Assembly (NCBI RefSeq): GCF_000223215.1
Contig: NC_017243.1
Coordinates: 744,001-808,000 of the forward strand
Source: Brachyspira intermedia PWS/A
GTDB lineage: Bacteria; Spirochaetota; Brachyspiria; Brachyspirales; Brachyspiraceae
Reading direction: 5' to 3'
DNA length: 64,000 nt
The notes under the pieces were generated by a model that saw only the letters and a program-made list of their open reading frames with translations, had not been told where the DNA came from and made no database searches. A program made the position numbers and the translations under genes. How positions within the stretch are numbered: position 1 is the first letter of the stretch; each line of letters begins with the position of its first letter. Of this stretch, positions 45,640 to 53,088 are shown in pieces.

Positions 45640-46050
45640 TAATTGTTTAGATATACCTAAACAACCATATTTTGTCAAAAATAATTTTTTTAAATTTTAA
45701 ATATATGCAGGGCTTTGCCCTTACGAAGTACACAGCGTGCAGCACCTCACTTCTTTTGCCTACGCTCTGCGTGCCGTAGGCAAGGCACCTACTCGGTTGT
45801 GACCCAGGCGAAGCCCGCCTACGGCGAGAAGCTATATCCTCGACAGGCTCGGATACGCTTCGCGAAAGACTGCATTTTTAGGGTATATCCTATATTTAAT
45901 AGGAATGTTTTTGATATAAAGTTATAGCAGTTGCGTTTTCGCGAAGCGTGCCTGCGGCAGCAACTTTGACGAAGTCGCGGCAAAAAAGTTGATAATTCTA
46001 TATAAAGTGCATCGATTGATAAACTTAAAAATTTTCATCATATATTAATT
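45640..46050. repeat. GC-rich modular intergenic repeat, copy 4 (largest)
   Basis: Starts with a 38-bp AT-rich palindrome (about 45640-45676), then GCAGGGCTTTGCCC (45709-45722), a stretch of GC-rich segments (TACGCTCTGCGTGCCGTAGGCA near 45761-45782), the 34-nt module (45834-45867), a TTTTCGCGAAGCGTGCC block (45936-45952) and an ACGAAGTCGCGGCAAAAAAG edge (about 45969-45988). A short plus-strand frame at 45715-45927 lies wholly inside and has no coding character. The 523-bp gap holds no gene. Confidence 0.75.
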
Positions 46051-46114
46051 TTTTTATAATAATTACGGCAGGTATTTTATATACCCGCCGCATTCATTTG
46101 AAAAAAAGATGTGA

Positions 46115-47998
46115 TTAAGGTGTAACTATGTTAAACCAATAATTGAAAGTGTCAAAGTAGGATAAAAACTCATTAAATGCATCTTTATTGTTAATATTTA
46201 AATCATCAGCCTTTTTAGTAAATAATGCCTTTTTGAAATCTGACATATTAATATCTATCGCATAGTCAGTATTTTCATTATTATATTTTTTATATTTAAG
46301 TATAGAGTTTTCAATTTTTACAAGATATTTATTATCATCTGTAATATTAAAAAGTACTGATATATTTTTATCTTTTACTTTATCAGGATTTAAAGCAACT
46401 GATATATATTCAAACATGTTTTCAGCAGATAATGCATTTATCATATCCAATGATGTAGTTTGAGGAGCCTTCATATTTTGATCTATTTCATTTCTAAGTT
46501 CATAAGCACCAGTAAGTAAATAAGCTCTCCAAACAGCAGATTCGCTTTGATATCCTAATTGTTCCATAGCATCAGCACTGAGTTTTCTTGCATTTTCATT
46601 ATTAGGATTAGCAAATATTACATTATTGAGTACTTCAACAACCCATCTGTAATCGCCTTCATCATAAGATTTTTTAGCCATTTTTATAATATTGTTTTCG
46701 CCGCCCATAAACTCAACATATCTTTTTGCTGATTCTTCAGGAGGAAGTTTATATAAATTAGCAGGATTTCCATCCCACCAAGCACCGAAATAAAAATCAT
46801 AAACAGCTTTTACATCATGATTTACAGAACCATAGTAACCTCTATTATAAAATTCTTTTGCTAAATTATCCGGTATCTGTATTTTTTCTGCTATCTCTAT
46901 AGGAGTGTATCCCATATTAGCATATCTTAAAGTTTGATCATGAATATATTTATATAAATCTCCATGCTTATTTAGAAAATCATCTATATTGCTTTGTTCC
47001 CATATAGGCCAGTGATGAGAACCGAATAATACATCAGTTCTGTTTTTTAAGAATTCTTTTGATTTTTCTATAGCCTTGGCCCATACAATAGAATCTCTTG
47101 TTTTTGCTCCTCTTAATGTTGATAAATTATGAAGTGTATGATTCATTACTTCAGCACTTGATGCAGCTCTGTATTTTGGTATATAAATCATAAACTCTGC
47201 AGGAGCTTCAGTGTTTTGTGCCATTAAAAATTGAAACTCTACTCCGTCAATTGTGAATGATTCATAATCTTTAGATATTATTTTATTTGGTTTTATAATA
47301 CCGGGAGTTCCAGTTGCAACTAATTTACCAAGTCCAGCATCAACAGTACCTTTTTCGTCTTTTGGTAAAAGTCCTCCGTACATATAGGAAGAACGTCTGC
47401 TCATAGCATTGCCTGCCAAAAGATTTTCTGATACAGCTTCTTCAAAAAATCCTTCAGGTGCCACAATAGGTATATTACTGTTTTCAATGACTCCTCTTAT
47501 TCCTCCGAAATGATCAACATGGGAATGTGTAAATATTACTCCTGTTATTGGGTCATTTCCTTTATGCTTTCTGAATAATTCTATAGCTTTAGATGCTGAT
47601 TCTTTTGTTGTCAGTACGTCTATTATAATCCAGCCTGTATCGCCTCTTACAAAAGTTATATTAGCTAAATCAAAACCTCTTACCTGATATATATCCGGAG
47701 TTACTTCAAATAAACCTGATATATTATTTAATTGAGCCTGCCTCCATAGTGATGGATTTACTGTATCTGGGGCAGACTGATTTGATATGAAAGGAAAAGA
47801 TACATTACCGTCAGAAGTTTCTATGAATCCTTTGCTTGCATTTTCAAAATCAGTATTGTCATCAAATGGCAAATAGTTTTTTAATTTTTCATTTTCTTTT
47901 TTGGTATATTCTGTTGCATCTTTTCTTTCGGAATTGAAATTATTAGAAGAACAGGATACTAAAAAAATACAAAGTATTGAAGTTAATATTTTATTCAT
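46115..47998 (-). CDS. Alkyl/aryl-sulfatase lipoprotein (metallo-beta-lactamase fold), copy 1
   Basis: A 627-residue type III alkylsulfatase of the SdsA1/BDS1 kind, which removes sulfate from alkyl sulfates using two Zn2+. A lipobox (FLVSCSSN) puts the Cys at about residue 16. The Zn site is FTHSHVDHFGGI (HxHxDH), followed by further ligands in APEGF..SEN, AQNTEAPAEF and NHTLHNL. The dimerisation and C-terminal SCP2-like domains (from about residue 380; YFGAWWDGNPANLYKLPPEE, then the last 120 residues) complete the architecture. AAGGAGA SD. It lies 55 bp after its paralogue. Confidence 0.92.
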   Translation of the reverse strand: MNKILTSILCIFLVSCSSNNFNSERKDATEYTKKENEKLKNYLPFDDNTDFENASKGFIETSDGNVSFPFISNQSAPDTVNPSLWRQAQLNNISGLFEVTPDIYQVRGFDLANITFVRGDTGWIIIDVLTTKESASKAIELFRKHKGNDPITGVIFTHSHVDHFGGIRGVIENSNIPIVAPEGFFEEAVSENLLAGNAMSRRSSYMYGGLLPKDEKGTVDAGLGKLVATGTPGIIKPNKIISKDYESFTIDGVEFQFLMAQNTEAPAEFMIYIPKYRAASSAEVMNHTLHNLSTLRGAKTRDSIVWAKAIEKSKEFLKNRTDVLFGSHHWPIWEQSNIDDFLNKHGDLYKYIHDQTLRYANMGYTPIEIAEKIQIPDNLAKEFYNRGYYGSVNHDVKAVYDFYFGAWWDGNPANLYKLPPEESAKRYVEFMGGENNIIKMAKKSYDEGDYRWVVEVLNNVIFANPNNENARKLSADAMEQLGYQSESAVWRAYLLTGAYELRNEIDQNMKAPQTTSLDMINALSAENMFEYISVALNPDKVKDKNISVLFNITDDNKYLVKIENSILKYKKYNNENTDYAIDINMSDFKKALFTKKADDLNINNKDAFNEFLSYFDTFNYWFNIVTP

Positions 47999-48053
47999 TC
48001 ATTATCTCCTTTTATTTATTTTATTTGAAATTTTTTATATTATAAAAATTTGA

Positions 48054-49937
48054 TTATGGAGTTACCACGCCAAACCAAAATTCCGGCATATCAAATGATG
48101 ATAGAAAATCATTAAATTTGTTCTTATCATTTATATCTAAATTATCAATATTTTTTGTAAATAATGCTTTTTTGAAATTATTTATGTCTGCATTGATTTG
48201 TATATCAGTTTCTTCATTATTATAATTTTTATATTTCAATACAGAATTTTCTATTTTTATTAAATATTTATTTTCATCTGATAGATTTAAATATATGCTT
48301 ATATCTTTTGCCTTATCCGGATTTAATGAAACAGATAAATAATCTAAAACTTTATATATAGGCAGACTATTTATAATATCTTTAGAATCTGTTTTTTGAA
48401 TTTGTCTGTTTTCATCTATACCATTTCTAAGTTCATAAGCACCAGTAAGCAAATAAGCTCTCCAAACCGCAGATTCGCTTTGATATCCTAATTGTTCCAT
48501 AGCATCGGCACTGAGTCTTCTTGCTTCTATATTATTAGGATTGGCAAAAACAACATGATTTAGTACTTCAACAACCCATCTGTATTCGCCTTTATCATAA
48601 TATTTTTTAGCCATTTTGATGATATTCTTCTCTCCTCCCATAAACTCAACATATCTTTTTGCTGACTCTTCAGGAGGAAGTTTATATAAATTAGCAGGAT
48701 TTCCATCCCACCAAGCACCGAAATAAAAATCATAAACAGCTTTTACATTATGATTGACAGTACCATAATAATTTCTATTATAAAATTCTTTAGATAAACT
48801 GTCTGGTATTTGTATTTTTTCTGCTATCTCTAATGGAGTATATCCCATATTAGCAAGTCTTAAAGTTTGATCATGAATATATTTGTATATATCAGACTGC
48901 TTTGTTAAAAATACTTGAATATTTTCATCTCCCCATATAGGCCAAGTATGAGATCCGAATAATACTTCAGTTCTGCCTGATAAAAATTCCTTTGATTTTG
49001 ATATAACATCAGACCATAAAATTGCATCTCTTGTTTTAGCACCTCTCAATGTTGATAAATTATGTAATGAATGGTTCATCACGTCTCCTCCTGAAGCTGC
49101 TTTGTATTTTGGTATATAAACAATGAATTCGGAAGGTGCTTCAGTATTTTGTGCCATTAAAAATTCAAATTCAATTCCGTCAATGGAATATGATTCATAA
49201 TCTTTTGAAATAATTTTTGTAGGCTTTACTATGCTTGCTTCTCCTCCTGCGACTTTTTTGCCGAATCCTATGTCTACATTTCCTTTTTCATCTTCTTCAA
49301 GTAAATTTCCATACATATATAATGCTCTTCTTCCCATCACATTTCCAGCTAGAAGATTTTCAGATATTGCCTCTTCAAAGAATCCTTTAGGTGCGATTAT
49401 TGGTATATTTTTATTTTCATCTGTAATTACAGCCTTTATTCCTCCGAAATGATCTATATGCGAATGAGTAAATATTATGCCTGTTATAGGATCATCACCT
49501 AAATTCTTTCTGAAAAGTTTTAATGCCTTTTCTGCAGATTCTTTTACAGTTAATGGATCCATTACTATCCAGCCTGTATCTCCTTTTATAAAAGTGATGT
49601 TGGCAATATCAAAAGCTCTTATCTGGTATATGCCTTCTGTTACTTCAAATAATCCTGATATATTATTTAATTGAGCCTGCCTCCATAGGGAAGGATTAAC
49701 AGTATCTGGGGCAGGCTGATTCGATATGAAGGGGAAGGATATATTATCATCTGAAGTCTCTATAAAGCCTCTTTTAGCATTTTCAAAATCAGTATTGTCA
49801 TTAAATGGCAAGTAGTTTTTTAATTTTTCATTTTCTTTTTTTGTGTGTTCTGTTGCATCTTTTCTTTTGGAATTGAAATTATTAGAAGAACAGGATATTA
49901 AAAAAATACAAAGTATTGAAGTTAATATTTTATTCAT
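48054..49937 (-). CDS. Alkyl/aryl-sulfatase lipoprotein, copy 2
   Basis: First of the tandem pair, also 627 residues with the same lipobox (FLISCSSN), the Zn motif FTHSHIDHFGGI and the same C-terminal domains. Identity to copy 1 is very high through residues 60-550 and lower in the last 80 and in the helical segment around residue 200-240, where the two differ most. Both keep all Zn ligands. The gene is divergent from a TetR regulator whose operator-like repeats cover its promoter (TTGACA at 50019-50014 and TAGAAT, 16-bp spacer, minus strand), so expression is probably controlled by that regulator. Confidence 0.92.
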   Translation of the reverse strand: MNKILTSILCIFLISCSSNNFNSKRKDATEHTKKENEKLKNYLPFNDNTDFENAKRGFIETSDDNISFPFISNQPAPDTVNPSLWRQAQLNNISGLFEVTEGIYQIRAFDIANITFIKGDTGWIVMDPLTVKESAEKALKLFRKNLGDDPITGIIFTHSHIDHFGGIKAVITDENKNIPIIAPKGFFEEAISENLLAGNVMGRRALYMYGNLLEEDEKGNVDIGFGKKVAGGEASIVKPTKIISKDYESYSIDGIEFEFLMAQNTEAPSEFIVYIPKYKAASGGDVMNHSLHNLSTLRGAKTRDAILWSDVISKSKEFLSGRTEVLFGSHTWPIWGDENIQVFLTKQSDIYKYIHDQTLRLANMGYTPLEIAEKIQIPDSLSKEFYNRNYYGTVNHNVKAVYDFYFGAWWDGNPANLYKLPPEESAKRYVEFMGGEKNIIKMAKKYYDKGEYRWVVEVLNHVVFANPNNIEARRLSADAMEQLGYQSESAVWRAYLLTGAYELRNGIDENRQIQKTDSKDIINSLPIYKVLDYLSVSLNPDKAKDISIYLNLSDENKYLIKIENSVLKYKNYNNEETDIQINADINNFKKALFTKNIDNLDINDKNKFNDFLSSFDMPEFWFGVVTP

Positions 49938-49959
49938 TGCTTACCTCTTTGTGTTTGTA

Positions 49960-49998
49960 GAATTGATTCTATGAATAAATTCAATGAATTGATTCTAT
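49960..49998. promoter_or_regulatory. Operator: three GAATnnATTC palindromes at 13-bp spacing
   Basis: GAATTGATTC (49960-49969), GAATAAATTC (49973-49982) and GAATTGATTC (49986-49995) are each perfect palindromes and are repeated exactly every 13 bp. The outer two sit in a 13-bp direct repeat, GAATTGATTCTAT. They lie between the alkylsulfatase start and the tetR start, and the right-hand copy overlaps the predicted -10 of the alkylsulfatase promoter. Confidence 0.8.
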
Positions 49999-50005
49999 AA
50001 TATAA

Positions 50006-50034
50006 TTGCAATTTGTCAAGTTATTTGTTATAAT
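50006..50034 (+). promoter_or_regulatory. Candidate promoter of the TetR gene (leaderless)
   Basis: TTGCAA (50006-50011), 17-bp spacer and TATAAT (50029-50034); the ATG at 50041 coincides with the predicted +1 and has no SD. Confidence 0.55.
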
Positions 50035-50040
50035 TCTTTT

Positions 50041-50646
50041 ATGAAAAAGATAGAAAAAGTAACAAGAAAAGAACAAGCAGAGCAAACAAAGAAAAAAATA
50101 GTAGAAACTACTATGAATTTATTGAAAGAACATTCATTAAATGAGCTTCAAATTAAAGATATTTGCACTAATGCTGATATATCTATAGGAAATTTTTATC
50201 ATTATTTCACTAATAAGCAGGAAATAATATTTTATATTTTCAATACTAATGCTGAAGTATATAAAGAGAAAATATTATCAAGGGATAAGACTAATTCTTA
50301 TAAAGATATATTATATGCTTTTAAAGAATTTTCTAAATTGGTTGCGGAATTAGGCGGGGATTTAATACTTGAAATATTTAATTATAGTATTATGAATAGG
50401 AATAATGCTTTATTATCAAAAGATGCTTTTTTTTATAATCATATTTTATCTTTGGTTGATTCATTAAAAAAATCAAATTTAGTTATATATGATGACAGTG
50501 CAGAGTCTATAACTAAAAGGTTTATAGTGTTTTTTAGGGGATTTTTTTATGAATGGGCTTTATCAAATAGTAATTTTAATCTTGTGAAAGAAACTGAAAA
50601 AGAAATGAAATTATATTTATCTTTATTTATAAAAATAGATGATTAA
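50041..50646 (+). CDS. TetR/AcrR-family transcriptional regulator
   Basis: A 201-residue repressor-type protein. The N-terminal three-helix DNA-binding domain spans about residues 12-58 (TKKKIVETTMNLLKEHS, LQIKDICTNADISIGNFYHYFTNKQEI), followed by an all-helical ligand-binding domain. Its divergent arrangement with the alkylsulfatase pair and the palindromic array between them suggest it represses them and responds to an alkyl sulfate or similar amphiphile; this is inference. The ATG has no SD. Confidence 0.9.
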   Translation: MKKIEKVTRKEQAEQTKKKIVETTMNLLKEHSLNELQIKDICTNADISIGNFYHYFTNKQEIIFYIFNTNAEVYKEKILSRDKTNSYKDILYAFKEFSKLVAELGGDLILEIFNYSIMNRNNALLSKDAFFYNHILSLVDSLKKSNLVIYDDSAESITKRFIVFFRGFFYEWALSNSNFNLVKETEKEMKLYLSLFIKIDD

Positions 50647-51742: not shown

Positions 51743-52324
51743 TTAGTTAATTTCATCATTATTTGATTCATTTGTAGACTCATTTTTTTGAAATAGAATA
51801 ATATTTCTTACTGCCGCATATACAACAAGGCATGATAATACTTTATCAATTATATTTGTTAATAATCTCATTAAGAAAGATGCCTGGAAGAACCCAAAAC
51901 CATTTTCATTTAATAGTCTTATAAAACTGTCTATTGTTGTACCTGTAAATCCATCAGATAAAATTATAGATATTGGAGTTCCTATCAAAGGTGATAATAT
52001 TCCAATTATAATTCCTGATATAATAGCTGTTATAATACCAAATTGAAATTTTTTAGCTGCAATGCCAATTATTATACCTATTAATGCATTTACTATTGCA
52101 AAATTTAAATGCGAATAGCTTAGAAATATTGATATTATAAGATTTGTTAATATTCCAACAATAGCGCCATAAATAGGGCCTAGAATAACAGCCGACAAAA
52201 TAGTACCCACTGAATCTAAAAATAAAAATGGTATTTTTAACAATAATACTATGAATGTTAAAGCAAAATTTATTACTATTGATATAAATACTATTAATAT
52301 ATTATATTTTAAATCATTATTCAT
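51743..52324 (-). CDS. ECF-type transporter S component, copy 1
   Basis: A 193-residue membrane protein with about six hydrophobic helices. The family pattern is FLFLDSVGTILSAVILGPIYGAIVGILTN (about 36-64), then LNFAIVNALIGIIIG. Such S components bind a vitamin or other micronutrient and join a shared ECF energising module encoded elsewhere; the substrate is unknown. The start was set at 52324 because a TTGAAA-17-TATATT promoter (52387-52359) ends just upstream; the frame reads 21 codons further from a TTG. Likely operon with the dipeptidase. Confidence 0.8.
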   Translation of the reverse strand: MNNDLKYNILIVFISIVINFALTFIVLLLKIPFLFLDSVGTILSAVILGPIYGAIVGILTNLIISIFLSYSHLNFAIVNALIGIIIGIAAKKFQFGIITAIISGIIIGILSPLIGTPISIILSDGFTGTTIDSFIRLLNENGFGFFQASFLMRLLTNIIDKVLSCLVVYAAVRNIILFQKNESTNESNNDEIN

Positions 52325-52358
52325 AATTTTAACCGAAAATATAATTGACTCATTCCTA

Positions 52359-52387
52359 AATATACAATGATAAACTTTATTTTTCAA
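52359..52387 (-). promoter_or_regulatory. Candidate promoter for the S-component/dipeptidase operon
   Basis: On the minus strand TTGAAA (52387-52382), 17-bp spacer and TATATT (52364-52359), about 30 nt before the ATG at 52324. Confidence 0.5.
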
Positions 52388-52438
52388 TATATTTATTTTA
52401 ATTATAATAATTTATTTTGTTAATTCAATTAGTATTTT

Positions 52439-53005
52439 TTATTTATAATGGTGATTGTTTTCCCTTTTTAAAAAAAGTATATGTTTAATAGCTAAGGTTA
52501 CCAATATTGAAGACAATAACTTATCTATTATAGCACTTGATATTGTAGTTATAGTTACAGATATAATAAAACTTTTTCCGCTATTTTGAATAAGCTGGAT
52601 AAAATTATCTATTGGTTTATTAGTAACTCCCTTAGCTGCAATTATCACTATGGGTAATGATACAATAGTAGAAATTAATCCTATTATTATACCTGATATG
52701 ATTGAAACTTTTATTTTTGAAAAATCATATTTCCTTGCTATTACTCCAGCAGTTAATCCTATAACTACATTTACTATTGCAAAATGTAAATTAACATAGT
52801 CTACTGTCATAGATATGATAAAATTTGTAGCAATACCTACAACAGCACTATATATAGGTCCAAGTGTAACAGCGGTTAATATAGTACCAGCAGAATCCAT
52901 AAATAAAAATGGTATTTTTAATATTATTACCAAATGCCCCATTATAATATTTGCTAAAATACTAATTATCATTATAGTGATATCATATATAATCTTATTT
53001 TTCAT
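52439..53005 (-). CDS. ECF-type transporter S component, copy 2
   Basis: A 188-residue paralogue of the neighbouring S component with the same helices and a matching core (FLFMDSAGTILTAVTLGPIY, then LHFAIVNVVIG), but diverged loops and C-terminus. The two genes are 114 bp apart with a promoter between, so they may be expressed separately. The start at 53005 is an ATG inside a longer frame that begins with TTG; the SD is weak (TTGGAT). No riboswitch was recognised upstream. Substrate unknown. Confidence 0.78.
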   Translation of the reverse strand: MKNKIIYDITIMIISILANIIMGHLVIILKIPFLFMDSAGTILTAVTLGPIYSAVVGIATNFIISMTVDYVNLHFAIVNVVIGLTAGVIARKYDFSKIKVSIISGIIIGLISTIVSLPIVIIAAKGVTNKPIDNFIQLIQNSGKSFIISVTITTISSAIIDKLLSSILVTLAIKHILFLKRENNHHYK

Positions 53006-53088
53006 AAAAAAATCCAATATGTTTTCTTTACGCTATAATTTTCGTTTTTAAAATTTATAAATTTATATATATGAGTGAAAATATTTAT

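Follow-up and report, generated by a model that had tools for sequence, protein, structure and literature searches.

The closest described enzymes to those considered here are the type III alkylsulfatases SdsA1, YjcS and PSdsA, and the regulator of SdsA1 is of the LysR type. At the Psychrobacter slf locus the regulator is of the AraC type (PMC3346939). TetR-type regulators with operators long enough for several dimers include QacR, where one operator is bound by a pair of dimers, and EthR, which occupies its operator as an octamer, according to titles cited in PMC5895659. In the open-access literature, we found no report of the 13-bp operator described below or of TetR control of alkylsulfatases. 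The Brachyspira papers name 'sulfatases' without a family, and these may or may not be the genes described here.

We analysed a stretch of 64,000 nucleotides from Brachyspira intermedia PWS/A (the window), in which two tandem alkylsulfatase genes and a divergent tetR gene flank a short array of palindromes. The features of the locus are as follows.

46064–46092, minus strand: terminator-like stem-loop with a 12-pair stem, closing the sulfatase operon
46115–47998, minus strand: alkylsulfatase copy 1, 627 aa, putative lipobox FLVSC; PF00753, PF14863, PF14864; 76% identical to copy 2
48054–49937, minus strand: alkylsulfatase copy 2, promoter-proximal, 627 aa, putative lipobox FLISC; PF00753, PF14863, PF14864
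49960–49969, no strand: candidate operator box 1, GAATTGATTC, exact match; +17 to +26 relative to the predicted sulfatase transcription start
49973–49982, no strand: candidate operator box 2, GAATAAATTC, exact match; +4 to +13
49986–49995, no strand: candidate operator box 3, GAATTGATTC, exact match; −10 to −1, overlapping the sulfatase −10 hexamer TAGAAT
49992–50019, minus strand: predicted sulfatase-operon promoter, TTGACA-16-TAGAAT; 11/12 bases match the consensus, tied for best in the region
50006–50034, plus strand: predicted tetR promoter, TTGCAA-17-TATAAT with TG; conserved in the six-genome alignment, prediction only
50041–50646, plus strand: TetR-family regulator, 201 aa, proposed box-reading repressor; PF00440 at 36.4 bits (cut-off 24)

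The sulfatases are ordinary members of the known alkylsulfatase family, and no pointer to mucin was found. The substrates named in the original prediction, namely host-derived sulfated lipids, steroids and mucin-associated compounds, are conjectural. Both copies are full-length SdsA1-type enzymes, with the metallo-beta-lactamase, dimerization and SCP2-like C-terminal domains in order. They share full-length homology, the three Pfam domains, the THSHxDHFGG motif and the metallo-beta-lactamase fold with PSdsA, YjcS and SdsA1, the solved structures nearest to both; for copy 2 the closest is PSdsA (4nur). They differ from these enzymes in their lipobox-like N-termini, their tandem arrangement and the TetR type of the regulator. 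Each N-terminus is a short signal ending in FLVSC or FLISC, plausibly the lipobox of a sulfatase lipoprotein, and the original prediction of two tandem lipid-anchored sulfatases is borne out to the extent that both are of lipoprotein type and carry all three domains. The metal-site features THSHxDHFGG, NTEAP and a distal His (GSHHW/GSHTW) are present in both copies, with residue roles that we take to be those of SdsA1. The second acidic metal-site residue is Glu in copy 1 and Asp in copy 2. This Asp is also found in the copy 2 orthologue of genome G014; unlike the Glu of SdsA1, YjcS and PSdsA, it resembles the secondary alkylsulfatase Pisa1 (4av7), and a division of labour between a Glu-type copy 1 and a Pisa1-like copy 2 is possible. 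In the copy 1 orthologue of G014 (L032), Arg replaces the distal metal His (GSRHW for GSHHW); the copy may be damaged, or the sequence of this metagenome-derived genome may be in error there. Downstream of the operon, at 45710–46000, lies a GC-rich interspersed repeat mosaic with 54 matches across the genome and inverted arms, ACGCTTCGCGAAA, 69 nt apart.

Three perfect GAATnnATTC boxes at an exact 13-bp period had been claimed, and checking of the coordinates confirmed them: all three are exact matches, at steps of 13 and 13 bp, in an array at 49960–49995 between the tandem sulfatases and the divergent tetR. Single boxes are not special in this AT-rich sequence, because the window holds five exact ones where 2.8 are expected; an enrichment of single boxes with up to one mismatch was likewise rejected (73 observed, 72.5 expected). 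In 12.8 Mb of simulated DNA no box pair at a 13-bp step occurred, and chance would be expected to produce the triple array 2.6 × 10−7 times in 3.3 Mb. The search for boxes elsewhere that had been proposed was run on the organism's own genome and returned the tetR–sulfatase array as the sole exact pair or triple. When the pattern was loosened to GAAYnnRTTC with as many as two mismatches, no further operators of the TetR stood above the control in this genome (12 matches against 13).

The promoters, both consensus predictions, are interleaved. The range of the original prediction, 46115–49998, does not reach tetR and takes in little of either promoter. Relative to the predicted sulfatase promoter the array runs from −10 to +26, with box 3 sharing bases with the −10 hexamer, and this position argues for repression. 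The same type of promoter element occurs in all Brachyspira orthologues examined and at the distant loci L127 and L053, and where a locus has a good promoter the boxes nearly always begin between about −10 and +11 relative to the predicted start. Counted from the predicted tetR start, the array stops near −46, which is a typical position for an activator, and repressing one of two interleaved promoters could favour the other. TetR might thus be an activator, or might mainly regulate itself, and the array would then serve the tetR promoter from upstream. We regard this as quite improbable, since in every well-resolved relative the array lies on or just after the −10 element of the target gene and not that of tetR, and since tetR at L049 and L053 is not divergent but lies further down the same gene cluster. 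For a repressor acting on the sulfatase promoter, these positions suggest that tetR autoregulation would probably be mild or indirect. At 50029–50043, the predicted tetR start falls on the first base of its ATG in 6/6 genomes, and because this is kept in all six, the tetR mRNA may be leaderless.

The assignment of the divergent gene to the TetR family was upheld by its PF00440 match and by an all-helical, TetR-like predicted structure of nine helices with a C-terminal ligand/dimer domain (mean pLDDT 86), which matches Thermus FadR with a TM-score of up to 0.77. The nearest solved relatives are FadR-type TetR repressors, as known from Bacillus and Thermus, both by profile (5gpa, 5gp9 and 3whb) and by fold (3anp and 3ang). 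Unlike these, the Brachyspira regulator is not accompanied by a fatty-acid degradation gene set, and its proposed operator is a 13-bp tandem array. It passes no cut-off among the curated subfamily profiles, scoring 24.1 bits against a cut-off of 200 for the Bacillus-type FadR family (NF053878), and no subfamily-level relation to QacR or EthR was found. The FadR-type relatives hint at a hydrophobic ligand but do not prove one.

Within the order, a TetR orthologue is present in 6/31 genomes, with 86–96% identity outside the window, and the array is present in exactly those six, the other 25 being without it. In the aligned promoters neither the GAAT and ATTC letters nor the 13-bp step changes, whereas the spacers and box centres do. 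Boxes 2 and 3 are kept in 6/6 Brachyspira loci and box 1 in 5/6; in G010 one 13-bp unit is missing, leaving two boxes between preserved outer flanks. Conservation of the boxes with the gene pair, on which the original prediction was to stand or fall, was found for tetR (6/6) but not for the tandem sulfatases, which occur only in G000 and G014 among the genomes. A single sulfatase gene orthologous to copy 1 is present in G007, G025 and G010 (96, 96 and 89% identity), and G024 is fragmentary. Since the single genes of G007 and G025 carry copy-2-like residues near their 5′ ends, the sequences suggest that an earlier pair collapsed by recombination. The gene order queA, sulfatase, tetR, M19 dipeptidase is common to most array-bearing Brachyspira. 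Beside the dipeptidase gene in the window are two adjacent, similar genes of the ECF-transporter S-component type (51743–53017), the first scoring 170 bits, just below the CD3073-family cut-off of 180.

Beyond the order, a scan of GTDB contigs for the triple gave nine places, two of them Brachyspira. Three of the seven others adjoin a TetR with a C-terminal R-G...W motif: in L047 tetR is divergent from an FMN/FAD flavoprotein gene, in L049 it shares a gene cluster with a Na:solute symporter and an amidohydrolase, and in L053 with an amidohydrolase/peptidase. The remaining four (L045, L046, L050 and L052, from a Deltaproteobacterium, a cyanobacterium and two Lachnospiraceae) were set aside as coincidences or local repeats, no subfamily TetR being seen nearby. 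Viral contigs gave 17 box-pair matches. A scan for 13-bp pairs in 391 Clostridia-class genomes found them in 8 genomes, against 1 with a reversed-pattern control; at L078, L080 and L081 a TetR of the R-G...W type is divergent from an enoate-reductase-like or fumarate-reductase-like gene, and the pairs at L077, L079 and L082, where there is no such TetR, were judged to be chance.

As a blind test, the 391 Clostridia genomes were searched with the TetR protein alignment alone. The array was present beside 13/13 of the best TetRs, five known beforehand and eight (L088–L095) not chosen by pattern, although L092–L095 are close relatives of one another. For the next 17 TetRs the count was 0/17, the background level, and GAATnnATTC arrays were absent beside the more distant TetRs L096–L112. 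Among 393 Spirochaetota genomes, the array accompanies the three best non-Brachyspira TetR matches (L113–L115), L127 and L141, with 0–1 of 100 simulated sequences per locus scoring equally high. These counts are not fully independent, because several tested loci are related to each other. The array-bearing distant TetRs, from Clostridia and other spirochaetes, are 19–44% identical to the Brachyspira regulator, and their arrays mostly lie over promoters of other genes (flavoprotein, enoate reductases). Conservation with the gene pair was thus again divided, the array being kept beside TetR and the genes below it being unrelated. L127 is a second TetR–alkylsulfatase pair, from another spirochaete family (TetR 44%, sulfatase 71% identity), with a TTGACA-17-TAGAAT promoter and boxes at the same place as in Brachyspira. 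Its sister L126 is a real exception that keeps the TetR–sulfatase pair without the array. The L126 spacer (1380–1480) has other AT-rich palindromes (TACAATATATTGTA), which may be a replaced operator.

A letter-blind scan for any tandem palindrome was applied to the relatives and recovered 13-bp arrays with another half-site in the GC-rich L130, L133 and L134. The boxes of this branch read TGACCnnGGTCA, three each in L130, L131, L133 and L134 and two in L140, and adjoin GC-rich Spirochaetota TetR relatives; most of the candidate target genes there have no assignment, that of L140 encoding an SDR-like dehydrogenase. In the AT-type proteins the recognition helix reads VS[IV]G nearly throughout (VGIG in L053), followed by [SNTA] and an aromatic pair, and the 56 pooled boxes have the half-sites [TAC]GAAYN and NRTTC, with the two A's invariant. 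In the GACC-type proteins the helix reads TAKG-[SN]-F-Y in L131, L133, L134 and L140, where it is readable. GAAY is thus paired with VS[IV]G and GACC with TAKG, whilst the spacing stays at 13; L096 and L126 have a similar helix without an array. Because letters and helix change together with the spacing kept, this covariation argues that the TetR protein reads the array DNA and that the spacing itself matters. On this comparative evidence it is the regulator rather than the sulfatases that the array accompanies, because distant TetR relatives carry it over other genes and because half-site and helix covary. There is about an even chance that these proteins form a TetR subfamily of Spirochaetota and Clostridia with a fixed 13-bp ruler, two or three palindromes and a half-site that tracks the helix.

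These comparisons also bear on whether the array could be something other than a TetR site, such as a minisatellite, a repeat that arose by chance or an element of the leader RNA. Some triple matches do resemble repeats or within-gene coincidences, namely the four set aside above. We nevertheless find such an origin scarcely credible, given the strict co-occurrence of array and regulator (six genomes with both, 25 with neither), the blind recovery of arrays beside distant TetR relatives, the joint change of half-site and helix, and a sulfatase leader in which no RNA structure was detected (fold z −0.23).

The original prediction also held that neighbouring dimers would be rotated around the DNA. 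The arithmetic is right, as 13 bp computes to 1.24 turns, 86 degrees and 44 Å, and 26 bp to 2.48 turns and 171 degrees, but the rotation is not anomalous: it is expected, because rotation is the only way for dimers with footprints longer than 13 bp to fit on the same DNA. Across the arrays the outer half-sites are weaker than the inner ones (11/46 against 5/70 degenerate, p = 0.014), and this leaves room for a dimer register centred on either the boxes or the spacers. The same TetR might bind two spacer-centred palindromes (ATTCnnnGAAT) with flanking half-sites, as the more degenerate ends suggest and as L113 illustrates, where both outer half-sites are degenerate and both spacer-centred palindromes intact. 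We think this rather unlikely, since the box centres are strictly 2 bp, the box letters are more constant than the spacers, the GACC-type arrays have inner and not only outer degenerate half-sites, and cooperative binding would explain weaker ends as well.

Very probably, then, the array serves as operator for the divergently encoded TetR repressor, whose dimers would shut off the sulfatase operon until released by a ligand. The analysis thereby supports a TetR operator and a regulatory unit shared by these genes. This explanation builds on the anatomy of the array, its conservation, regulator–operator co-occurrence and helix–operator covariation, from which we infer binding, repression, cooperativity and the ligand. 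TetR dimers would bind the 13-bp-spaced palindromes, with the consensus TGAAYnnRTTCA, neighbours lying 44 Å apart and ∼86 degrees round the helix and three sharing 36 bp, probably cooperatively. They would cover the −10 element, the start site and the first ∼26 bases, keeping the operon off, and a small, probably hydrophobic, ligand would free the repressor so that the two lipoprotein alkylsulfatases are made. The proposed system resembles QacR and EthR in a TetR-type regulator and an operator with room for several dimers, and differs from them in that its operator consists of two or three separate palindromes with a fixed 13-bp period.

The enzyme family and multi-dimer TetR operators are known; the 13-bp operator grammar of a TetR subfamily seems to be new. 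TetR is among the largest regulator families, and most of its members have no known operator. One subfamily would gain an operator signature that can be read and used for prediction in two phyla, together with a switch of helix specificity. The signature could help to find targets for many regulators as yet unassigned, including several encoded next to flavin reductases in anaerobes. The array would also offer a clean test of dimer packing on DNA at a non-integral helical spacing. If the 13-bp ruler is true, a conserved spiral stack of dimers, held by protein–protein contacts, would control various genes of anaerobic bacteria, those for sulfatases and flavin reductases among them. For Brachyspira the prediction is that alkylsulfatase production is inducible.
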